42,697 nt of DNA. It comes from a virus. The notes under the pieces are model-generated. The model was not told the origin of the DNA. It searched no databases and saw only the letters and a program-made list of their open reading frames with translations. Positions 1,888-37,811 of this stretch are shown here, piece after piece. Positions within the stretch are counted from its first letter, which is position 1. Every line of letters begins with the position of its first letter. Location: the IMG/VR virus record IMGVR_UViG_3300030106_006588, positions 26,432-69,128 of that record. One strand, 5' to 3'. A program made the translations under genes and the position numbers.

Positions 1888-2487
1888 TTATATACCTGTT
1901 TTTAATCTTTTTCTTAAGTTATATGTCAGCGACACTCTCTGGACTAATTTCGCCTTCGAAGGGGCAGTTGTTGGGTTTTCGACTAATGCTTTTCTTAAAT
2001 ACTCTTTATCCGGTAATTTTTCTGCTGATTTTTTTAATACTTCACCATTAAAAATTCTTTTTAAAAAAGTTTCTTTTACAAGTCCAAATTTTACTTTTTC
2101 TTCTGCAGACCAACTTTCAAAATCATCAACTAACTTTGATTTTACAGATTTAATTGTTGCTTGATATTTATTTCCCGTAGGCATAGAAGTTATTAAGTTG
2201 TTTTCGTAAGCAGTCTTAATAATGTTAATAATAGATTTTCTTTTATTTTTCCAAAAATTTTGATTTTTTTTCAACTCTATAATTTCTTTTTCTCTATTTG
2301 AAATTTGTTTATCACAATCTTTTATTACACTAATTATTGCATCAAATTTTGATTCCTCTCTAGATTTAAGACAATTCCAAATATATTCCAGTTCCTCTTT
2401 TTCTTCAATGTCAACTGAAGATTGTAATAATTCATCGATTTCTTTACTTTTTTCCAGTAACTGATTGTAACTTAGAGGATCTGCCAT
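1888..2487 (-). CDS. Gp157-like coiled-coil protein
   Basis: The 199-residue protein follows the plan of the siphovirus Gp157 family (Pfam PF05565). An N-terminal helical segment (about 1-60) leads into a long coiled coil, about 60-95 (KQISNREKEIIELKKNQNFW...). Then comes a short basic beta region (NKYQATIKSVKSKLVDDF) and a C-terminal PDKEYLRKALVENP helix with a final VSLTYNLRKRLK strand. Gp157 proteins are usually found among phage recombination genes beside SSB or Erf/RecT-type proteins, and here the SSB and an exonuclease are close by. Their biochemical role is unsettled. The assignment rests on pattern similarity only. Confidence 0.65.
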   Translation of the reverse strand: MADPLSYNQLLEKSKEIDELLQSSVDIEEKEELEYIWNCLKSREESKFDAIISVIKDCDKQISNREKEIIELKKNQNFWKNKRKSIINIIKTAYENNLITSMPTGNKYQATIKSVKSKLVDDFESWSAEEKVKFGLVKETFLKRIFNGEVLKKSAEKLPDKEYLRKALVENPTTAPSKAKLVQRVSLTYNLRKRLKTGI

Positions 2488-2570
2488 AATTACATGTTTT
2501 GGTCAAATTGTAAGTTGTGTACGGTTTCTGTCAATAACTGAAGTAGAATAAGTAAAGAATCCTCATACTT

Positions 2571-2822
2571 ATGGCATCTTTTGATTTAATCGAATTGTCT
2601 ATTGATCCTTTAGATATGGAACCAACACTAGAGGATGAGTTCACAGCTACTGTGGTTAAAAATCAAATTGACGATTTAGATGACATTGATCATGTAAAAA
2701 TTGCTACAAAGCAATTAGTCAACATAGTGATGCAAAGACAGGCAATGATAAGAGCGTTATGTAAGCGACTATCTGATATAGAAAAAGGGGATAACATACG
2801 AATACAAAGATTTAAGGGGTAA
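2571..2822 (+). CDS. hypothetical acidic protein, 83 aa
   Basis: A plus-strand gene in an otherwise minus-strand arm. The N-terminal half is acidic (DLIELSIDPLDMEPTLEDEF) and the C-terminal half is helical (KQLVNIVMQRQAMIRALCKRL). No family recognised. It diverges from the Gp157-like gene, with 83 nt between the two start codons that must hold both promoters. It is followed after one base by a TTG-initiated small frame. Confidence 0.6.
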   Translation: MASFDLIELSIDPLDMEPTLEDEFTATVVKNQIDDLDDIDHVKIATKQLVNIVMQRQAMIRALCKRLSDIEKGDNIRIQRFKG

Positions 2823-2823
2823 C

Positions 2824-2964
2824 TTGTCTATTGAATTAAAAACATCGAAACTATTAAAAATTTTGGAGCAAGCTACTGTATGTGAGGACAGAGAAAAAGC
2901 ACAAAAGCTCATAAAAAAAGCGGATAAAGTTTCTAGGAAACTCTCCGCCTTATCAGATTTTTAA
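2824..2964 (+). CDS. hypothetical small basic protein, 46 aa, TTG start
   Basis: The frame begins TTG one base after the stop of the preceding gene, with AAGGGG of that gene placed as its ribosome binding site. It encodes an amphipathic basic helix (KLLKILEQATVCEDREKA...KVSRKLSAL). It ends 6 nt before the stop of the convergent DUF5895-like gene. The good Shine-Dalgarno spacing and clean packing argue that it is real. Confidence 0.5.
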   Translation: MSIELKTSKLLKILEQATVCEDREKAQKLIKKADKVSRKLSALSDF

Positions 2965-2970
2965 TTAGTA

Positions 2971-3909
2971 CTAGGTTAATCCACCAACTAATTCCCCTGT
3001 TTCGGTACTTCTTTTTCCTAAGTCATCCGCAGCTGGAAGGATTGGAGCTGCACTCAGATCGACCCCTGGGGCTAATGCATTAATTCCTACCTCTTCCTGC
3101 ATCTGCTTGAAGAAGTTCTTACCGTATGCCTCTACAGGGAAACATTCATAGATGTTTTCATAGTTATCTATGTCTTCATCTTTTTTCGGCCAGAAGTTTT
3201 CAATGGTTTTTGGTGTAGGTTCTAGCCATTTATTTGGGGATAAAACTTTTGCACCAAAGTCACCAAATTTTGTAACTCCAAAGGTTGGTGTCCATATTAC
3301 GGAGGCACACATTTTTTCACCAAAGCCCTCAGCGTTTGTATCTCCAGTGGCCTTTGCATAAGAACTTTCTAGTTGTTCTAAGAATTGTGAATATTTTTGT
3401 ACAAAATTCTTTTGTGCTCCACCACCAAGGGATAGTACTACAGGTTTGCTATGAACCGCCTTACCATTTTTATCTACTAAGTAGACAAGCATAATTCTTC
3501 TAACCTTATAAGGAGAAGATTTAGGACCACCTGCGTTTTCTGTTTTCCAGTTGTCCCAAAGGTATTTAGCATCTTCATAGAATCCCATAATGGTGCTTTT
3601 GTTTTTGCCATCAGGACCTTCTTCATTTTTTTCTAAAAAGGTTGGATCAGTATTTTGAGCACCCCGAAGTAAAATTAGTCGAGGAGTTCTAAACATGATT
3701 CCCTCTTTAACAGTCCCATCACGAAACTCGTATGTTTCTTCAGAAGCGTTAGGAAAATCATCTACATCGCCATGCCATCCACAGCGATCCATTTCTTCTT
3801 TTTTAAGAAATAAAGCCTTTTCATCACTTAAACCAATAAAGGTTGCGAACTTTTCTCTTAAGCGACGAGGATACTTATCAGTATCTTTAAAGCGATCTAA
3901 TACAGTCAT
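2971..3909 (-). CDS. DUF5895-like protein, possibly DNA-binding
   Basis: This 312-residue protein resembles the cyanobacterial/cyanophage DUF5895 family. The conserved points are a G-x(2)-F/S-x-x-x-RL-x-LL strand (EGIMFRTPRLILLRG), a YLVDKNGKAVHSKPVVLSLGGG strand pair, and the helical segment FVQKYSQFLEQLESSYAKA. The N-terminus contains a KYPRRLREKFATFIGL helix. It lies directly downstream of the SSB gene in the same direction, so it probably belongs to the replication/recombination set. Its function is unknown in the family. The start has an AATTATG context with no clear Shine-Dalgarno. Confidence 0.55.
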   Translation of the reverse strand: MTVLDRFKDTDKYPRRLREKFATFIGLSDEKALFLKKEEMDRCGWHGDVDDFPNASEETYEFRDGTVKEGIMFRTPRLILLRGAQNTDPTFLEKNEEGPDGKNKSTIMGFYEDAKYLWDNWKTENAGGPKSSPYKVRRIMLVYLVDKNGKAVHSKPVVLSLGGGAQKNFVQKYSQFLEQLESSYAKATGDTNAEGFGEKMCASVIWTPTFGVTKFGDFGAKVLSPNKWLEPTPKTIENFWPKKDEDIDNYENIYECFPVEAYGKNFFKQMQEEVGINALAPGVDLSAAPILPAADDLGKRSTETGELVGGLT

Positions 3910-5975: not shown

Positions 5976-6110
5976 ATGCAAACAAAAGACCCTATTGATT
6001 TATATTTTGAATGTGTATCATCTTGCTCAATCCAAGATGACGACAGGGAGTGCGTAAATAGGTGTGTTGAAAAACTAAAAATTCAAGACGTAAAAAGTGA
6101 CAATAATTAA
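5976..6110 (+). CDS. twin CX3C small protein, 44 aa
   Basis: The frame MQTKDPIDLYFECVSSC... contains two CX3C motifs, CVSSC and CVNRC, separated by 11 residues on a predicted helical hairpin. Spaced CX3C pairs can form two parallel disulfides or bind metal. Short proteins of this pattern occur in T4-like cyanophages as far as I recall. Its stop overlaps the polymerase stop codon from the opposite strand. The coding potential is good for its size. Function unknown. Confidence 0.65.
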   Translation: MQTKDPIDLYFECVSSCSIQDDDRECVNRCVEKLKIQDVKSDNN

Positions 6111-7942
6111 TGTGTCTCCATCCAATTTTTTCCCTCTCTTGCTTCCCCTGTCATAGGACATTTCAATTTAAAATATTCTCCAGACTTTCTAAAACAATCT
6201 ATTGCAAGTTTTTTATATAAACTTACATGTTGAGGTTTTACTAAAGCTTGTATCTCATCATGGATATGAGCTACAAAGGCATAATGGATACCCCATCTTA
6301 AATAATTTTTTTTACAATCTTCGTAAAGGATGCATGTCGCTTTTTTTACACATAGGCTTCCGGTAGATTGTAGTAATTGATTTAAGGCTGAATGTCTAGA
6401 CCTAATTTGCAAATGTCTACCATCAACACCGATTAGGTATCCTCTTTGTGTTACTTTCTCATCAACCTTGTCTTTTAATTTTTTTATTGCAGGTAAATTC
6501 TTGTAAAAAGTATCAATAGTTTCTCTCCCTATTTCCTGTCGGTCTTGTTGATTTAAACTTGTATTAAGGATTGACCCGATACGATTTGGACCACCACCAT
6601 AAAGAACTGCGTAAATTAGTGTTTTTGCTAATTCTCTTGTCCGTTTTTCTATTTTTCCTTGACCATCATATATTCCAAACAATTTGGCGTTATGAGTATG
6701 AATATCAAAGCCTTCAGTACTAACTAACTTTGCATATTCTCCACCATCAAAGTAAGCTAATTGAGCACCTAACGCCCTAAGTTCTAATCCAGATGCATCA
6801 CAGCCTACTTGTCTCCACCCCGTAGGAGCATAAAATAACGATCTACATTCTGCACCATAAGGTTGACCTACTCTAGGAATTTGAGCTACATTCGGACCCC
6901 GATGGGAACACCTTCCGCTGACACAAGCATTTGTGATTACTGACCCATGTATTCTTCCATCCTGATATCTTTGGCAATGTTTAAGCCAGGCTTCCTTACC
7001 TTCAGATATCTGTCCCAGTCTTTTATTTAATAATTGATATTTTGATAACAATGCAGCTTCAGGATATTTTTTCCCTAAATCATCTAATACATCATCATCT
7101 AGTTTCACATTACCTTTTTCAGTTTTATTAAAAGTAATAGCAGGATATTTTTCTTTTAATCTTTCAGATGTTTGTTTTCTTGATGCTGGATTAAATTTAG
7201 TTACTTTAGTTTTTAATTGTTTTCCTGTTTTTTCTGAAAATCTTTCTTCTGATATTGGGGGGAATACTTTTTGTAATTGATCATCTATCTCACTTCTTTC
7301 TTTTTTTAATTCATTTACTAAAGCAAAAGCTTTTCTTTCATCGAATGGGAAACCAAAAGCTTCCTGTCTAGCCATGACTCTAGCGAAATCATGTTCTAAA
7401 TCAAAACATCTTGGATCTAAGGTTTGAGTCTCAAAGTATTTATATAGCTCTAAAGATACTAAAGTATCTCCCTCACAGTACTTTTGCATTTCTTCAGACC
7501 ATACATCCCACCTTTCTTCATACTTATCAGCTCCCTCAAAGTTTATTTTTTTTACATTTAATCTTTCACCCCAAGCTCCCAAACTATGTTTACCTTTGTA
7601 TTTAGGAGGTATGTGAGAAAATTTAGCCTCATCTACAGGTTCTAATTCTGGTGAGAGAACCCTACTAACAATTAATGTGTCATATATTTTGCAATTTTTC
7701 TTTAATTTAAAACTTTTATAAACTTTTTTAAGAGCTCTAAAATCGAAATTAATTATATTATGGCCGACAAGTAGATCAGCTTTAGACAACATATAAAGTC
7801 CATTAACAATAGGTTCATAATCCTTTTGATCTGCACAACTAGTGACATCTCCATCATCAATATCTCTTAACACCAAAGAATGAACAGTATTTAACTCGTG
7901 GAGAAGACCATTAGTTTCACAGTCAAATACGAACCTTAACAT
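6107..7942 (-). CDS. DNA polymerase, family A, T7-like, with 3'-5' exonuclease
   Basis: The 611-residue replicative polymerase copies phage DNA with proofreading. The exonuclease domain has Exo I (D7, E9 in FDCETNGL), Exo II (GHNIINFD, D67) and Exo III (Y155-x3-D159). The polymerase domain has CVSGRCSHRGPNVAQIPR (about 340-357), motif A D382 in CDASGLELRA, motif B R436-x3-K440-x7-Y448G, and motif C H561-D562-E563. Motif B has Tyr444 at the T7 Tyr526 position. The exonuclease spacing and the HSLGAWG segment match T7 gp5. It is shorter than T7 gp5 (704 aa), and I cannot locate a thioredoxin-binding loop by eye. It overlaps the 75-aa gene upstream by TGATG coupling. Confidence 0.95.
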   Translation of the reverse strand: MLRFVFDCETNGLLHELNTVHSLVLRDIDDGDVTSCADQKDYEPIVNGLYMLSKADLLVGHNIINFDFRALKKVYKSFKLKKNCKIYDTLIVSRVLSPELEPVDEAKFSHIPPKYKGKHSLGAWGERLNVKKINFEGADKYEERWDVWSEEMQKYCEGDTLVSLELYKYFETQTLDPRCFDLEHDFARVMARQEAFGFPFDERKAFALVNELKKERSEIDDQLQKVFPPISEERFSEKTGKQLKTKVTKFNPASRKQTSERLKEKYPAITFNKTEKGNVKLDDDVLDDLGKKYPEAALLSKYQLLNKRLGQISEGKEAWLKHCQRYQDGRIHGSVITNACVSGRCSHRGPNVAQIPRVGQPYGAECRSLFYAPTGWRQVGCDASGLELRALGAQLAYFDGGEYAKLVSTEGFDIHTHNAKLFGIYDGQGKIEKRTRELAKTLIYAVLYGGGPNRIGSILNTSLNQQDRQEIGRETIDTFYKNLPAIKKLKDKVDEKVTQRGYLIGVDGRHLQIRSRHSALNQLLQSTGSLCVKKATCILYEDCKKNYLRWGIHYAFVAHIHDEIQALVKPQHVSLYKKLAIDCFRKSGEYFKLKCPMTGEAREGKNWMETH

Positions 7943-10040: not shown

Positions 10041-10126
10041 ATGTCACGAGTTCAAGACATCTGTATTGTATAGTTATGTTAAGTCATCTCGGATGGCTTT
10101 TTTTATATTCATTACAACGGACTATT

Positions 10127-11218
10127 ATGGCGACATCAGTTCTACAGCGTCGGAGACAATCCGAGTTGCTAGGCGGTTGGCAGTCCCTCTGTGAGTGGGT
10201 TACATCAACAGATAACAGACTATACGTTGGTTGGTTTGGTGTGTTAATGATCCCTTGCTTACTTACAGCAGCGACATGCTTCATAATTGCGTTCATAGCA
10301 GCTCCTCCTGTAGACATAGACGGTATACGTGAACCAGTAGCAGGTTCTTTCTTATATGGAAACAACATCATCTCAGGAGCAGTCGTTCCAAGCTCAAACG
10401 CAATCGGACTCCACTTCTACCCAATATGGGAAGCCCTCACAGTTGACGAGTGGCTATACAACGGAGGACCATATCAATTGGTCATCTTTCACTTCCTCAT
10501 CGGTATCTCAGCTTACATGGGACGACAGTGGGAACTTAGTTACAGATTAGGCATGCGTCCTTGGATCTGTGTTGCATACTCTGCACCAGTTTCAGCAGCT
10601 TTCGCAGTATTCCTAGTTTATCCATTTGGACAGGGATCTTTCTCTGACGGAATGCCTTTAGGTATTTCTGGTACATTCAACTTTATGTTTGTATTCCAAG
10701 CAGAACACAACATTCTTATGCACCCACTTCACATGGCTGGTGTTGCAGGTATGTTCGGTGGAGCATTATTCTCTGCTATGCATGGATCATTGGTAACATC
10801 ATCTCTTATTAGAGAAACAACTGGTCTTGAGTCACAAAACTATGGCTACAAGTTCGGTCAAGAAGAAGAAACATACAACATCGTTGCAGCTCATGGCTAC
10901 TTCGGTCGTTTGATCTTCCAGTATGCAAGTTTCAATAACAGCAGAAGTCTTCACTTCTTCCTAGCAGTATTCCCAGTAGTTTGTATTTGGCTAACTTCAA
11001 TGGGTATCTGCACAATGGCATTTAACTTAAACGGTTTCAACTTCAACCAGTCAATTGTTGACACTAACGGTAAGATCGTTCCTACATGGGCTGACGTTCT
11101 TAACAGAGCTAACTTAGGCTTTGAAGTAATGCATGAAAGAAATGCTCACAACTTCCCATTAGATCTAGCTTGTGCTGAATCTACTCAAGTTGCTCTATCA
11201 GCTCCAGCTATAGGTTGA
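10127..11218 (+). CDS. psbA: photosystem II D1 protein
   Basis: The 363-residue protein is a complete D1 reaction-centre subunit that keeps host photosynthesis running during infection by replacing photodamaged D1. It has five membrane spans. Intact ligand motifs include [13 protein letters not shown] (Tyr-Z and Asp170 region), [11 protein letters not shown] (Glu189, His190), the HMAG/His198 chlorophyll ligand region, and [14 protein letters not shown] (His332, Glu333, His337, Asp342, Ala344). The DLA before CAEST is the CtpA processing site. The residue equivalent to position 130 is Gln, as in the standard-light D1 form. The ATG at 10127 is chosen because the 17 residues upstream are not D1. 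The GC content looks higher than the surrounding genes. A terminator follows. Confidence 0.99.
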
Positions 11219-16299: not shown

Positions 16300-17373
16300 T
16301 TAATCAATCTCTTGTAATTCCTTTACAAAATATGCTACTTCAGCTAAGTCATCACGCATTAAATTCATGCTTGTAAGTAATGAAATATTAACTTTACACC
16401 TTAAATCACACCTTCTTCCGCCTCTCCTACCTCTTCTTCCACCTCTTCTACCTCTTCTTCCCCTAGAAACACCACCTCTAGATCTAGATGTAGACCTTCC
16501 ACTTCTCCGACTCCTACTTGTATTAGAGCTTCTGCTCCTAGATGTTGATCTCCTGCTTGCACTTCCTGTTGCTCCCCTAGATCTACTACCACGAGTTCCT
16601 GCAGATCCACCTCTTCTTCCACCTCTTCCTACACTACTACCAAATCCTCTTCCTGCAGTACTAGACCTTCTTTTTCTAGCTAAAGCTTTTGCTTTATTTT
16701 GTCGTGCTGTTCTTTTTGCCCTAGATTGGACGGTAGTATATCTACCACCACTACCAGTTTTTCTAGTTGATGCTTCTTCTTTAGCCTTGGTAGCTACCTC
16801 GACTGCTTTTTTTGGAGTATTTGTTGTTTTAATTTGTTTTTTTACTTCACCAAGCTGAGTCCCAACGGTAGAGACTTGATCTCTAACTGATTTAATATCA
16901 CCTTTAAGAGCACCATACTGTTTATCTCTTTCTGCTTTATCTGCAGAGAATCGTTTATCAAATGATTGAGAAATTCCTGCAATTTGTTCTGATGTTGATT
17001 GTCTATCCTTTCTATATTGGTCAGCTGCCTCACCTGCTGCACTGGTGACTTGAGAGATACCTCTACCTATAGCATCTTGTGCTGCACCAGCTATTTTACT
17101 TAAACGATCATCTTTTTTCTCTGTCATAGGAGCATAAAAAGATGCTTGGGCTGATCTAGTGGGATCTTCAGTTTTACGCATTTCTGCTTTTCTAGCACCA
17201 ACTCTTTGAGCAGTACCTCCTACTCCACTACCTATATCTGATAATCTCTTTTTAACTTCAGCTCCATATTTACCAGACACTGGTGTTTGTGCAGCTGCAT
17301 ATCTTATCTGTGTGCCCTCAGTCATAGGGGCATAAAAATCTCTTTGTGCTCTTAAACTATCTCTTCTTAGCAT
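16300..17373 (-). CDS. SR/RG-rich protein with S74-like Cys tail, paralogue 1
   Basis: 357 residues. The N-terminal part contains FYAPMTEG and FYAPMTEK about 65 residues apart, then a coiled-coil segment (about 120-185, DKQYGALKGDIKSVRDQVST). Residues about 200-320 are low-complexity Arg/Ser/Gly (SRGGVSRGRRGRRGGRRGRR). The last 37 residues carry RCDLRCK ... DDLAEVAYFVKEL, a module shared with the next gene and with the virion-region protein at 36998. The SR/RG stretch is likely disordered and RNA- or DNA-binding. CDLRCK has Cys and Lys at the spacing of the S74 Ser-Lys dyad. The stop of the 544-aa paralogue is directly adjacent. Function unknown. Confidence 0.65.
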   Translation of the reverse strand: MLRRDSLRAQRDFYAPMTEGTQIRYAAAQTPVSGKYGAEVKKRLSDIGSGVGGTAQRVGARKAEMRKTEDPTRSAQASFYAPMTEKKDDRLSKIAGAAQDAIGRGISQVTSAAGEAADQYRKDRQSTSEQIAGISQSFDKRFSADKAERDKQYGALKGDIKSVRDQVSTVGTQLGEVKKQIKTTNTPKKAVEVATKAKEEASTRKTGSGGRYTTVQSRAKRTARQNKAKALARKRRSSTAGRGFGSSVGRGGRRGGSAGTRGSRSRGATGSASRRSTSRSRSSNTSRSRRSGRSTSRSRGGVSRGRRGRRGGRRGRRGGRRCDLRCKVNISLLTSMNLMRDDLAEVAYFVKELQEID

Positions 17374-19008
17374 TTATTTAATCTCCTTGACGAAGTATGC
17401 TAATTCAGCTAAGTCATCCCTAACTAAATTAGTATTTATTAATGGAGATATATTTATTTTACACCTGATATCACAACGTCTTCCGCCTCTTCTACCTCTT
17501 CTACCACCTCTTCTTCTAGACCCTCTAGAAACACCACCTCTAGATCTGCTTGTACTTCTTGATCTACTTCCCTGTCCCCTAGAACTTGAAGAACGTGTTC
17601 CGCTTCTAGAACTACCTCTTGATGTTCCACCTCTAGATCTGCTACCTGCACTACCTGCTGATCCACCTCTTCTACCTGCTCTACCTGTAGAACTACGACT
17701 ACTACTTGTTGATCTACCGAAACCTGTACCTGAAGATGTCGATTTTTTCTTTCTTGCTATCCTTGCCCTTGCTAGTGCCTTTGCTCTATCAGCCCCAGAC
17801 ATTGAAGGAGATGCAGTACCTGATTCTTTAGCTGCGTTTCTCGCTTTTGCCATTGCTCTAGCTTTAGCTGCTCCAGGACCCATGCCAGCTTCCATAGGGG
17901 ATTGGACACGAGGTTGTGGCCTACCAAGAGTTCTAACTCTACTAGATTGAGCAGAAGAACCTAAACCACCCATACCACCAGCTTCAACTGCTGCTCCAAT
18001 ATTACTGACCATATCACCAACACTAGGTGTACTCATAGAAGGGACATTAGATTCGCCCATAGTGAAGCGTGTAGGTTTACCTTCTAAAGTGCCTGCTTCT
18101 ACTTTTGGAGTAAATATTTTACTAACATTATCAACAACATTACCTACATTATCCGCTACACCACTTAAAAAATTCTGAGTTCTTTCCATAAGATTTGGAT
18201 TAGGTGACATTCCAGCTTGTTCTCTAAATATTTTTCTTCGCTCTATATTTTCTTTAGCTTTAAAATCTTTTACTGATAATTCAGACGTAGGTTTTTGTTC
18301 TCCTAAATTTCTTCTTGTCAAAACTCCATAAGGGTCTACTGATATTCCAGGTTCGTTATAAACTCTTTGAACTCCTCTCAAGGTACTAATACGCTCGTCC
18401 TTACTTAAAATATTTGGATTTCTAGGATCTGGTTTGCCTTTAAGATCAGTACCAAAAACAAAATTAGAGACTCTTTGTGTAATGCTAGGTTTATCAAATT
18501 TTTGCATTGCTCTTACATATGCCTTATCGTCTATATTTTTTCTTTCTTGTTTAGCTATTCTTCTAGCTTCATTTAATTGTTTTTCTCTTTCAAATGCTTG
18601 ATCTTTTTCGTAGTTTTCTTTTGCATCTGTAGATATATATCTTTTTATAGTTTCTGGCGAATAATCTACTTTATCTCCAAAGAAGTCAGTGCCTGTTTTA
18701 TAATCGAGAGTTTTTCTTTTAAATTTATCTATATCACCATCATACATTTTTTCTGCCATTCTGCTTTGAATATAAGTTTTTTTGTCAACTTTTTTTGGTT
18801 TATCAGTTTCTCTTAATGCATCTCTATAAGGGTCACCAGGATAACTCGGTGTAAAAGTCGAGTCGGTGTAAGACTTTACATTTGCTACTTGAACAGAGGG
18901 TGATTCTACTTTTAGATTAGATGTATCTGTATTTTCTTTATCTCCAGCAAATCTTGTTGTTCTTTTTTCAGCAGAAGCACTACCACTAAAAAACCCTTGA
19001 CTGACCAT
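17374..19008 (-). CDS. SR/RG-rich protein with S74-like Cys tail, paralogue 2
   Basis: 544 residues. The N-terminal 250 residues are charged and helical (KENYEKDQAFEREKQLNEAR) with many Lys. A middle segment (about 255-380) contains PNPNLMERTQNFLSGVADNV and small repeats. Residues about 415-510 are SR/RG-rich (SRGGTSRGSSRSGTRSSSSR). The C-terminus RCDIRCKINISPL ... DDLAELAYFVKEI is homologous to the paralogue at 16300. The paralogues abut with no spacer, which suggests tandem duplication of the C-terminal half followed by divergence. The N-terminal region shows no recognisable catalytic motif. It may be a virion or DNA-associated protein; uncertain. Confidence 0.65.
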   Translation of the reverse strand: MVSQGFFSGSASAEKRTTRFAGDKENTDTSNLKVESPSVQVANVKSYTDSTFTPSYPGDPYRDALRETDKPKKVDKKTYIQSRMAEKMYDGDIDKFKRKTLDYKTGTDFFGDKVDYSPETIKRYISTDAKENYEKDQAFEREKQLNEARRIAKQERKNIDDKAYVRAMQKFDKPSITQRVSNFVFGTDLKGKPDPRNPNILSKDERISTLRGVQRVYNEPGISVDPYGVLTRRNLGEQKPTSELSVKDFKAKENIERRKIFREQAGMSPNPNLMERTQNFLSGVADNVGNVVDNVSKIFTPKVEAGTLEGKPTRFTMGESNVPSMSTPSVGDMVSNIGAAVEAGGMGGLGSSAQSSRVRTLGRPQPRVQSPMEAGMGPGAAKARAMAKARNAAKESGTASPSMSGADRAKALARARIARKKKSTSSGTGFGRSTSSSRSSTGRAGRRGGSAGSAGSRSRGGTSRGSSRSGTRSSSSRGQGSRSRSTSRSRGGVSRGSRRRGGRRGRRGGRRCDIRCKINISPLINTNLVRDDLAELAYFVKEIK

Positions 19009-21687: not shown

Positions 21688-22842
21688 GTGGACAGAGAAT
21701 TTTTAGAAAAGTTTACTGAAGATGTAGCCCCTCGAATGGCTTACCTAGGAAGGTCAATGGCTGAGAGTGATATGGTTCGTAACTATTTAGGAGCAGATTC
21801 AGATGAATTAATACCTGATATGGCTACTCAACCAAAAGAATTCATGGAACTTAGGGATAAAGCATTAGAAAAAAAACATGGAAGAAGATTTGCTGATCAA
21901 TATATACAAAATAAATTAATAGGTCAAGGTGGAACTGGATCTGTATTTGAAAAACAAGGAGATCCATCAAGAGTTCTGAAAGTACAAAGAATAACAGACG
22001 ATCCCATGTTTGAAGAACCTGCAGTTGGGATACAACCTAAGTTTGTTGTAGATAAAGAAATAGATATACAATCACGAGCAGGTGAAGCAGGATTATCTCC
22101 TAGATTGCGTTCAGTTGAAAGTTATCCAATACCTAAAAGAAAATATCATCAGGGATATCCCAATCCTAGTAAGCAAGATGAAATTATGAATATTATGGAG
22201 ATGGATAGAGTATCTACTGTTGAAGATCAAGGCGGATTCGATGAAATTATTGATAGAAAAGTAAAAAATTTTGGATTTTCTAATTTTAAAGACTATCCAT
22301 ATAAAGGAACACAAGAACAGAAAGGTACATATATAAATAAAAAATCTCAGATGATTAAATCAGAGAATGCAAAGAAAGCCTTGGCTTTATCCAAATTACA
22401 TTTAGGATTAGCTGATCAAGGAGTAATTCATACTGATTTAGGTTATGGAGGTGAAAGAGCAGATCATTTAGTTTATGATCCATATTCTAATAAAATGCAA
22501 GCTATAGATTTTAATCAGGTACAAACATTTAAACATTCTAATAATCTTCATAAACATACTAGAAATCAAAATTTATTATCAGAAGAATTACAAGAGTATT
22601 CTCCACAAGCACAAGCAATGCACTTTCTAGATCATAAATCTAAATCTATATTTAATGGGATGATGGCTGTTGGAAATTCAGAGGAAGCTCATCTATATAA
22701 TAATTTATATAAAGAAGTTAGAGGTACTGGTGATTTAGTTGCTACGGAAGATTTAGTTAATCAAGGTCAGGAAATTATAAATAGACATACTATGAAAGAT
22801 GTAGATAACTTTCATTTAGATTTTTTAAAAAAACGAAAGTAA
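21688..22842 (+). CDS. protein-kinase-like protein, 384 aa
   Basis: A kinase-like fold is suggested by a glycine-rich loop IGQGGTGSVF (about 78-87), VLKV with Lys98, an acidic hinge NIMEMDRV (about 168-175), a catalytic loop VIHTDL (H248, D250) and an IDFNQ segment (D274) at the DFG position. Two departures reduce confidence in catalysis: the catalytic-loop Asn is not where expected, and the DFG Gly is Asn. It starts with GTG at 21688 because upstream residues are poor. It could phosphorylate host or virion proteins, or be a pseudokinase. It is a single plus-strand gene between minus-strand blocks, preceded by AT-rich DNA that may contain its promoter. Confidence 0.6.
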   Translation: MDREFLEKFTEDVAPRMAYLGRSMAESDMVRNYLGADSDELIPDMATQPKEFMELRDKALEKKHGRRFADQYIQNKLIGQGGTGSVFEKQGDPSRVLKVQRITDDPMFEEPAVGIQPKFVVDKEIDIQSRAGEAGLSPRLRSVESYPIPKRKYHQGYPNPSKQDEIMNIMEMDRVSTVEDQGGFDEIIDRKVKNFGFSNFKDYPYKGTQEQKGTYINKKSQMIKSENAKKALALSKLHLGLADQGVIHTDLGYGGERADHLVYDPYSNKMQAIDFNQVQTFKHSNNLHKHTRNQNLLSEELQEYSPQAQAMHFLDHKSKSIFNGMMAVGNSEEAHLYNNLYKEVRGTGDLVATEDLVNQGQEIINRHTMKDVDNFHLDFLKKRK

Positions 22843-26285: not shown

Positions 26286-26509
26286 TGGTTTACCTCCATA
26301 GCTTTTTTATATTCATCATCTAATTGATCTGATATTTCTTTCCATTCATCAGGCCAACCTAAATATGGGGTGTTGTGTTCACAGCTATGTTCGTTAAAGA
26401 CCCAATCAAATCCTTCTTTTAAAACCATTTGTAGCATCTGTTCTACAGGTCTTGCATCAGCTTTAGCTAATATTTTTAAAGCTTTAGTTTGAGTTTCAGT
26501 TAATTGCAT
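26282..26509 (-). CDS. hypothetical protein, 75 aa
   Basis: The N-terminal QLTETQTKALKILAKADARP and EQMLQMVLKEGFDWVF is a helical unit that could be a small ribbon-helix-helix-like domain, followed by HSCEHNTPYLGWPDEW. No firm family. Coupled by overlap at both ends. Confidence 0.6.
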   Translation of the reverse strand: MQLTETQTKALKILAKADARPVEQMLQMVLKEGFDWVFNEHSCEHNTPYLGWPDEWKEISDQLDDEYKKAMEVNQ

Positions 26510-30105: not shown

Positions 30106-30693
30106 TTACTGCCATTGTTGGCTCATGGCATCTGCAATGCCTTGAAAGGTTGTTGAACGTATTTTCCACCTATCTTTTGATGGAGGTAGCCAATGAAGTC
30201 TCTGTCTTTCCTTATCAGGTAGCCCTGAGACATCAATGAATTTAGTTCCTTTTAGTTTGGGTAACCCTTTTAGCCATAAGCCTGTCTTCTTCTGCTCAGG
30301 GTGTCCAAATTCATAAGGTTGAATATATTGTGTAGCCTTACCTAATTTTGATCTACTAGATAATGCTCCTACAGGATTCTCAATACAGATCTTCGGGCAA
30401 TCTGCATCCCATATATCCTCAACAAATTTGATAGCAGCAGGCTGTCTACCATCGGCTACTTTCTCAGCCCATCTAGATGCTCCACTAACTGATAGATGAG
30501 TGCATGGAGGATGAGCAATAATTAAATCCCATCCATCATTAATAATTTTTAGGACATCTCCTTGAATGTGTTTATCACTTGGTTGATCTGTAGGTAATAA
30601 ATCACATGACCATGCATCATGGCCTTTAGCATTGAATGCTTCTCGCACAATACCCGAATATTCGCAGGCTACCAATACTTTCATTAATTTCAT
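30106..30693 (-). CDS. DNA methyltransferase-like protein, cytosine-C5-type motifs
   Basis: The N-terminal Rossmann motif VLVACEYSGIVREAFNAKGH (SAM-binding region) is followed by IIAHPPCTHLS (PPC, residues 62-64, catalytic loop of C5 methyltransferases) and CIENP (about 104-107, ENV/ENP motif). At 195 residues it lacks the large target-recognition domain of a full C5 enzyme. Its Shine-Dalgarno is excellent (GGAGG, 4 nt before ATG 30693). It may modify phage DNA or tRNA-like substrates; the exact substrate is unknown, and it could be a compact SAM-dependent enzyme of another sort. Confidence 0.65.
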   Translation of the reverse strand: MKLMKVLVACEYSGIVREAFNAKGHDAWSCDLLPTDQPSDKHIQGDVLKIINDGWDLIIAHPPCTHLSVSGASRWAEKVADGRQPAAIKFVEDIWDADCPKICIENPVGALSSRSKLGKATQYIQPYEFGHPEQKKTGLWLKGLPKLKGTKFIDVSGLPDKERQRLHWLPPSKDRWKIRSTTFQGIADAMSQQWQ

Positions 30694-36997: not shown

Positions 36998-37600
36998 ATG
37001 GGTTTTCTTGGTGGTGGTGATCAATTCGGATTTTTAAAGAACAAAAGTTCAGGATCAACAAACCCTTTTTCTCCAGATTTTAAAAGTCCAGTACCACCTA
37101 GTTTTGGATATACCTCTAAGGTAGGTAGTATGTCGGGAATTAATCCTGCGGATTATATGATGAAGAAAAATCCTTTTGAAAAAGAAAAAAAAGGTAATTT
37201 TTTATCACGATTTATTGATGATATGCCAAAATTTGGGAGTGATAAAGAAGGTAAAAGTTTTCTAGATAGATTTAAAGAAGGATATTCTTACAGACCTAAA
37301 GAACAGTCAGGACAAGAACAATTCTACGGAGAACTTGCTAAGAGAATGGGGACTAGTGGGATGGTAGCACCTGTAGCTGAAGGATTAACTTTAACTCAGA
37401 ATGAAACCGGCTCACCAATAGTAGCTCCCGGAACACCAGGATCTCCTGGACTTCTTCAAACAGTTGGTGTACCTCTTTTAGGAGCTTACTTATGTGATAT
37501 AAAAACAAAAGAAGATATAGCTCCACTCTGTACTTCAGAAATTAATGACGTATTATCAGAGTGTGCATACTTTGTAAAAGATTTAAATGAGTGCTCTTGA
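36998..37600 (+). CDS. virion protein with truncated S74-like Cys tail, 200 aa
   Basis: The N-terminal 130 residues are Gly/Ser/Pro-rich with LSRFIDD and LDRFKEG. The C-terminal 36 residues read LCDIKTKEDIAPL ... NDVLSECAYFVKDLNECS. The start resembles the S74 endosialidase-type intramolecular chaperone domain (SDxxLKxDI...PL), with Cys instead of the catalytic Ser and Lys kept at +5. The rest of the S74 domain is in the overlapping ORF at 37587 in a +1 frame. Two other proteins (16300, 17374) carry the same tail. A +1 frameshift, a split domain or a sequencing slip are all possible. Confidence 0.6.
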   Translation: MGFLGGGDQFGFLKNKSSGSTNPFSPDFKSPVPPSFGYTSKVGSMSGINPADYMMKKNPFEKEKKGNFLSRFIDDMPKFGSDKEGKSFLDRFKEGYSYRPKEQSGQEQFYGELAKRMGTSGMVAPVAEGLTLTQNETGSPIVAPGTPGSPGLLQTVGVPLLGAYLCDIKTKEDIAPLCTSEINDVLSECAYFVKDLNECS

Positions 37601-37811
37601 GAAGTTAAAACAACTTGAACCTATACAATTTAGGTATAAAAAAGAATTTGATCCAGAACAGAAGTTGAGAGCTGGATTTTCTGCACAGCAAGTACAAAAG
37701 ATTATTCCAGAGGCCGTTGTAGAGGAAGATGGTTTTTTAATGTTAGATATGAATGTTTTAAACAAATATATGCGTCAGGCAAAAAGAGAGTTAAAGGCAA
37801 AGAATAGTTAA
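37587..37811 (+). CDS. C-terminal half of an S74-type intramolecular chaperone domain
   Basis: 74 residues: SALEKLKQLEPIQFRYKKEF, then KLRAGFSAQQVQKIIPEAVV and a final VLNKYMRQAKRELKAK. This matches the second half of Peptidase_S74 (ALEKLxxLxPxxFxYK...GFxAQxVxxxxPEAV...), which trimerises spike and fibre proteins and then cleaves itself off. The ATG at 37587 lies 14 nt inside the previous gene in the +1 frame. The codon pair TCT TGA at the end of that gene resembles shift-prone sites, but a separately translated subunit is equally possible. Confidence 0.65.
   Translation: MSALEKLKQLEPIQFRYKKEFDPEQKLRAGFSAQQVQKIIPEAVVEEDGFLMLDMNVLNKYMRQAKRELKAKNS

Follow-up and report, generated by a model that had tools for sequence, protein, structure and literature searches.

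S74/ICA domains are known as single-chain chaperones that cleave themselves by means of a Ser and that occur in trimeric fibres and in the myelin factor MYRF. Proteins of the S74 type are cut on the N-terminal side of the catalytic Ser, and the Lys located five residues later acts as the base (PMC3828593; PMC4690869). Searches of the open literature found neither a split or trans-acting S74 domain nor a Ser-to-Cys mutant. Here, we report that a DNA stretch of 42,697 nucleotides from a marine cyanophage (positions 26,432 to 69,128 of IMG/VR record IMGVR_UViG_3300030106_006588; hereafter, the window) encodes an S74-type domain in two overlapping genes, with Cys at the position of the Ser. We consider it probable that the pair is a split self-cleaving chaperone of the S74 (ICA) type that acts in trans, with its 74-residue C-terminal half (C-half) serving tagged virion-type proteins.

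A divided S74-type domain

The first gene, ORF1 (positions 36998 to 37600, plus strand), encodes a carrier of 200 residues, in which a C-terminal stretch rich in Gly (..GSPGLLQTVGVPLLGAYL) precedes the N-terminal half of the S74 domain. This half, referred to as the tag, is specified by 35 codons (positions 37493 to 37597, plus strand; CDIKTKEDIAPLCTSEINDVLSECAYFVKDLNECS) and comprises CDIKTKEDIAPL and a helix, 35 residues in all; ORF1 ends with ..LLGAYLCDIKTKEDIAPLCTSEINDVLSECAYFVKDLNECS and its stop codon. ORF2 (positions 37587 to 37811, plus strand) encodes the C-half in the +1 frame relative to ORF1. The overlap is 14 nt long (positions 37587 to 37600, plus strand): the ATG of ORF2 lies inside the ORF1 codons AAT-GAG, and the overlap ends with the TGA stop codon of ORF1.

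ORF2 alone matched the Pfam profile PF13884 (Peptidase_S74) over positions 16 to 57 of 58 (E = 5.4e-11) and was modeled by AlphaFold with a mean pLDDT of 93.6. In Foldseek searches, the best PDB match of this model was the MYRF ICA domain (7dc3; TM, 0.81; E = 2e-4), and a weak match was obtained with the GA-1 neck-appendage chaperone (3gud; TM, 0.64). Comparison of the ORF2 sequence profile with the PDB also retrieved 7dc3 (E = 6e-5), in addition to 8jov, a phage tail fibre. The structure prediction of ORF2 alone, which an earlier sequence-only reading of the locus had suggested, thus returned an S74-type fold, that of the chaperone body.

Profile-profile alignment with hhalign placed the CD.R.K.DI.PL motif of the tag on the SD.RLK.NI.P motif of canonical fused S74 domains. 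Residues 1 to 12 of the tag came first in this alignment, residues 13 to 34 formed an insertion, and ORF2 covered the remainder, indicating that the tag contains the first twelve residues of the S74 domain, including both catalytic positions, and a helix of its own, and that ORF2 contains the rest. The joined halves matched canonical fused S74 domains with an E value of 2.5e-22; the hhalign scores were 109 for the C-half alone, 121 for both halves, and 128 for the first 12 tag residues plus the C-half. The additional helix (residues 20 to 34 in the AlphaFold model) amounts to ~23 residues in comparison to canonical S74 domains and has no counterpart in them, an observation that we counted against the interpretation of a trans-acting split S74 domain. 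Ser was absent from the scissile position, which was occupied by Cys in all tags, and the Lys located five residues past the nucleophile position (Lys6) was present in 32 of 32 tags. No member combines dyad and body in one polypeptide, the two being encoded by separate ORFs throughout. On the basis of the tag alignments and of the S74 profile alignment, the cleavage site is predicted to be directly before the Cys codon at position 37493.

ORF1 belongs to a gene block located upstream of the terminase gene, with ORF2 and four more genes in between, and its neighbors include other Gly-rich proteins. Judged by the terminase, the nearest named phage is S-EIV1 (67%). S-EIV1 contained no tag, and the 49 kb examined showed no S74-like motif and little synteny with the window. 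A psbA gene (photosystem II D1), full-length by eye, is present at positions 10076 to 11218 (plus strand) and is 97% identical to the copy of the sister phage G007. Together, psbA and the terminase similarity mark the window as that of a cyanophage. Inspection by eye also revealed a protein-kinase-like motif set (GQGGTGSVFEK.., HTDLGYGGE..) at positions 21688 to 22842 (plus strand), kept in G007 at 38%, and a DNA cytosine methyltransferase look-alike (..HPPCTHLSVSG.., ..ENPVG..) at positions 30106 to 30693 (minus strand). The family A DNA polymerase is encoded by one ORF in the window (positions 6107 to 7942) and by two overlapping ORFs in G007 (G007:C1:47363-47782 and 47736-49211; L170).

Recurrence of the split pair and translation of the C-half

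The same split, which the sequence-only reading had proposed to seek in related phages, was found at 54 further loci, in IMG/VR contigs and one bacterial-bin contig; these loci include near-duplicates, and 45 distinct tag sequences were tabulated. An ordinary fused gene with an error in sequencing or assembly would typically also appear as neighboring frames that overlap, but this explanation, to which we attach a negligible probability, is refuted by the recurrence of the junction in 54 other contigs that were assembled independently. That reading had claimed a split S74 domain with its second half in an overlapping +1 ORF, as borne out by the Pfam match, the profile alignment, and the 54 contigs, and the replacement of Ser by Cys with conservation of Lys five residues later, which proved invariant in all tags. 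The fused Ser-type homologues that we detected were only remote S74 tail-fibre or virion proteins (one in the same genome), never members of the split pair.

In every adjacent pair except one (L040), the tag has 35 codons and the overlap is 14 nt; in L040, the tag has 34 codons and the overlap is 4 nt (ATGA), in the other frame. Cys1, Asp2, Lys6, Leu12, Asp19, Leu21, and Ala25 are invariant in alignment A2 and in the wider alignment A5, and no tag found deviates from Cys, Asp, and Lys at the first three of these positions. The carriers fall into about 18 groups without BLAST links between them; in most of them, the residues immediately preceding the Cys form a hydrophobic stretch rich in Gly and Ala, and a few end in an Arg-rich stretch. 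The tag could be a functionless C-terminal appendage, and the C-half a moron gene or a remnant undergoing decay, as might be suggested by the lack of the tag in some relatives (the ORF1 orthologue of G007, G004, and L007). This is very improbable, because purifying selection acts on both halves (dN/dS of about 0.24 for the tag and about 0.12 for the C-half), tag length is nearly constant over very diverged members, the tag is reused on many unrelated carriers, and the C-half model is well folded.

A search of 50,697 named phage records with ORF1, ORF2, and the tags and C-halves of distant members revealed no split pair; both parts would therefore probably be recorded as hypothetical proteins by annotation pipelines. 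ORF1 of the window had no match among the named phages, and ORF2 had weak matches, all below 60% identity; the matches listed were tail-fibre-type proteins.

The codon for tag residue 32 conceals the start of ORF2 in the other frame. In the 45 distinct sequences, this residue is Arg encoded by CGT (36 of 36), Asn encoded by AAT (8 of 8), or His encoded by CAT (1 of 1), always followed by G, so that a start codon, GTG or ATG, is preserved for ORF2 in each of the 45 distinct junctions. CGT accounts for 17% of the Arg codons in the same ORFs, a figure from which a nominal probability would be too small because of shared ancestry, although the use of all six Arg codons at residue 4 indicates that the sample is diverged enough. 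The last sense codon of ORF1 varies (TCT, GCT, AGT, AAT, TCG, or CCT), as does its stop codon (TGA, TAA, or TAG).

These data bear on the possibility that ribosomes undergo a programmed +1 frameshift at the stop codon of ORF1, similar to that in genes of the prfB or antizyme type, and thereby produce a single S74 domain from the two halves. A +1 relation and a short overlap that are both constant in nearly all members, and a junction that is usually NCT-TGA, are in keeping with such a mechanism. However, the conserved shift-prone codon and stop of prfB- or antizyme-type sites are lacking, and the downstream frame is not one that does without its own start: the stop and the preceding codon vary, while the in-frame ATG or GTG, which a shift does not need, is always kept. 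Furthermore, L040 is in the other frame, the C-half of L007 starts at a TAATG overlap, that of L005 follows a gap, and two tags of the window have no C-half nearby. We therefore consider frameshifting improbable. The sequence-only reading had left the choice between frameshifting and separate chains; the second option is supported, since the ORF2 start is conserved, the junction geometry changes, three tags coexist with one C-half, and the C-half is behind another carrier in the sister phage (see below). ORF2 is thus most likely translated as a separate chain from its own start, although rare slippage may occur.

Tagged carriers and mobility of the C-half

The carrier part of ORF1 matched no Pfam or PHROG family, and orthologues of ORF1 occupy the corresponding position in G008, G015, G004, and G007. 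The carriers of three other loci (L047 to L049) lie behind a tail-protein gene (phrog_457), with an 885-residue ORF after the C-half in L048, the flank of which is long enough. They match the cyanopodovirus protein whose gene follows that of tail tubular protein B and precedes the next large gene. Homologues were found in the Synechococcus podoviruses S-CBP1, S-SRP01, and DSL-LC07; the DSL-LC07 protein is annotated as internal virion protein gp14 and the others as hypothetical, and those of S-CBP1 and S-SRP01 are tagless. The L047 to L049 carriers are thus T7 gp14-like by homology as well as by the order of the genes (tail tubular protein B, carrier, next large gene). For ORF1 of the window, which matched no family, the comparison yielded only a hydrophobic, Gly-rich end resembling theirs and the location of the gene in the block upstream of the terminase. 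This position and the Gly-rich neighbors make an ejection role of ORF1 no more than plausible; as most carriers match no family, the argument comes mainly from L047 to L049 and gene order. That the Arg-rich carriers may be internal, DNA-binding proteins is a guess from their composition.

Searching the window genome with the tag profile revealed three tags, two more than the sequence-only reading had described, and one C-half. The second tagged carrier (positions 17374 to 19008, minus strand; 544 residues) and the third (positions 16300 to 17373, minus strand; 357 residues) both have an Arg/Gly/Ser-rich C-terminal region and matched the tag profile with E values of 3e-16 and 1.6e-15, respectively. 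Their tags, CDIRCKINISPLINTNLVRDDLAELAYFVKEIK (positions 17377 to 17475) and CDLRCKVNISLLTSMNLMRDDLAEVAYFVKELQEID (positions 16303 to 16410), have no C-half behind or near them, and the window genome contains no second one. The only other ORF2-like match in that genome was an ordinary fused Ser-type fibre (SDYRLK), indicating that both S74 types coexist there. This S74 tail fibre (SDYRLKENI..) occupies positions 1 to 1779 of L002 (G000:C1, about 20 to 22 kb, outside the window).

G001 similarly contains two tags and one C-half. A survey of 50 records revealed exactly one C-half in 46 of them and no fused version in any. Four fragments contain tags but no C-half, and G004 contains a C-half but no tag, for which incomplete contigs could be the cause. 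We counted two observations against the trans-acting interpretation: surplus tags occur in two genomes only (the window genome and G001), and most contigs contain one tag and one C-half, adjacent to each other.

Comparison with G007, the terminase of which is 91% identical and which is colinear with the window, shows that the C-half moves between carriers at the level of gene arrangement: the only C-half of G007 is directly behind the orthologue of the 544-residue Arg-rich carrier, and that of the window is behind ORF1. Two other loci, L164 and L165, contain tagged carriers without a C-half behind, at apparently the same locus as the Arg-rich carrier of G007. Conversely, the C-half is kept where the adjacent carrier has lost its tag (L005 in G004, and L007). 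By eye, the N-terminal part of the tagged product of L165 (positions 11 to 1477) resembles a cyanophage tail-fibre or collar protein (..SSAPTGWSQITSHNNKAFRVVSGTG..). Tagged carriers of about 366 residues without a C-half were also observed in L071 (positions 2011 to 3108), L079 (positions 2008 to 3108), and L077; they appear by eye to start with a Hint (intein-like) domain (..GVRVPDMEVLLAGG.. ..HTYVCDGVLLHNG), a stretch that had no Pfam match at E 0.01.

The three tagless ORF1 orthologues (G007, G004, and L007) terminate with ..VVGGLA, ..LIGGLF, and ..GGLFG, i.e., either immediately ahead of the Cys position or one residue farther on. Because S74 proteins are cut on the N-terminal side of the Ser, these orthologues resemble the predicted mature product of ORF1. 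The pair might instead act in trans as an assembly clamp that does not cleave, the complex staying in the particle and the Cys having a structural or redox role. Cys replaces Ser throughout, and the conserved extra helix could serve as a permanent docking element, both as expected for a clamp; the invariance of Cys1 and Lys6, the known dyad positions, in all tags and the ends of the tagless orthologues at the predicted cut make it unlikely.

Putative function and comparison with known systems

The self-cleaving reading, which we favor, could operate as follows. Several virion-type carriers end in a 35-residue tag that would bring the catalytic pair, Cys1 and Lys6, and a docking helix, and ORF2, translated from its own start and coupled to the carrier gene, would supply the rest of the fold. 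The C-half would dock on the Cys-Asp-x-x-x-Lys tags, probably as three tags and three C-halves as in the S74 trimer, thereby gathering the carrier chains and shielding their hydrophobic or Arg-rich ends. The completed fold would let Cys1 attack the preceding peptide bond with Lys6 alongside; the tag and the C-half would then leave, and the mature carrier would end just before the Cys. The binding of the C-half to the tag, the stoichiometry, the cleavage, the nucleophilic role of Cys, and the participation in the assembly of DNA-ejection proteins are what we infer from the comparisons above. Extended to the whole genome, one cofactor would oligomerize several unrelated tagged virion proteins (ejection-type and Arg-rich) and trigger their self-cleavage as a trans-activated Cys-type S74 system, a tentative extension about which we are nearly evenly divided, with some leaning to doubt. 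In that case, the tag would act as a portable signal to "assemble, then cut." A natural two-gene Cys-type S74 domain that acts on several carriers would mean that the dyad and the body are separable, would provide a natural split self-processing tag of 35 plus 74 residues, and would direct attention to an assembly and maturation step of proteins ejected by phages into marine cyanobacteria.

The S74/ICA domains of tailspikes and fibres (K1F endosialidase, 3GW6; T5 pb1; GA-1 neck appendage, 3GUD) share with the split pair the fold of the C-half, the Asp and Lys of the SDxxxK motif, and the C-terminal position on the carrier. The split pair differs from them by its two genes, the replacement of Ser by Cys, the extra 23-residue tag helix, carriers that are mostly not beta-helical fibres, and a single C-half for several carriers. 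The closest solved structure to the C-half, by both sequence and fold, is the ICA domain of MYRF/MrfA (7dc3), which resembles the proposed system in releasing a protein rather than making a fibre, but which is a single chain with a Ser nucleophile in eukaryotic transcription factors. Fused S74 tails of virion or DNA-ejection proteins (phrog_6121 and phrog_4287; L124 and L125) are likewise located behind an Ala/Gly-rich hydrophobic stretch on non-fibre proteins, although in one chain, with Ser (SDRRLK) and no extra helix. Split inteins offer an analogy only: two genes likewise encode a self-processing domain in two parts, which have to come together, with Cys at the scissile bond, whereas their fold is unrelated, the S74 pair implies no ligation, and one S74 half would serve several partners. 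Since Ser is replaced and the domain is not in one chain, we refer to the pair as a split Cys-type relative of the S74/ICA domains rather than as a member of that family.
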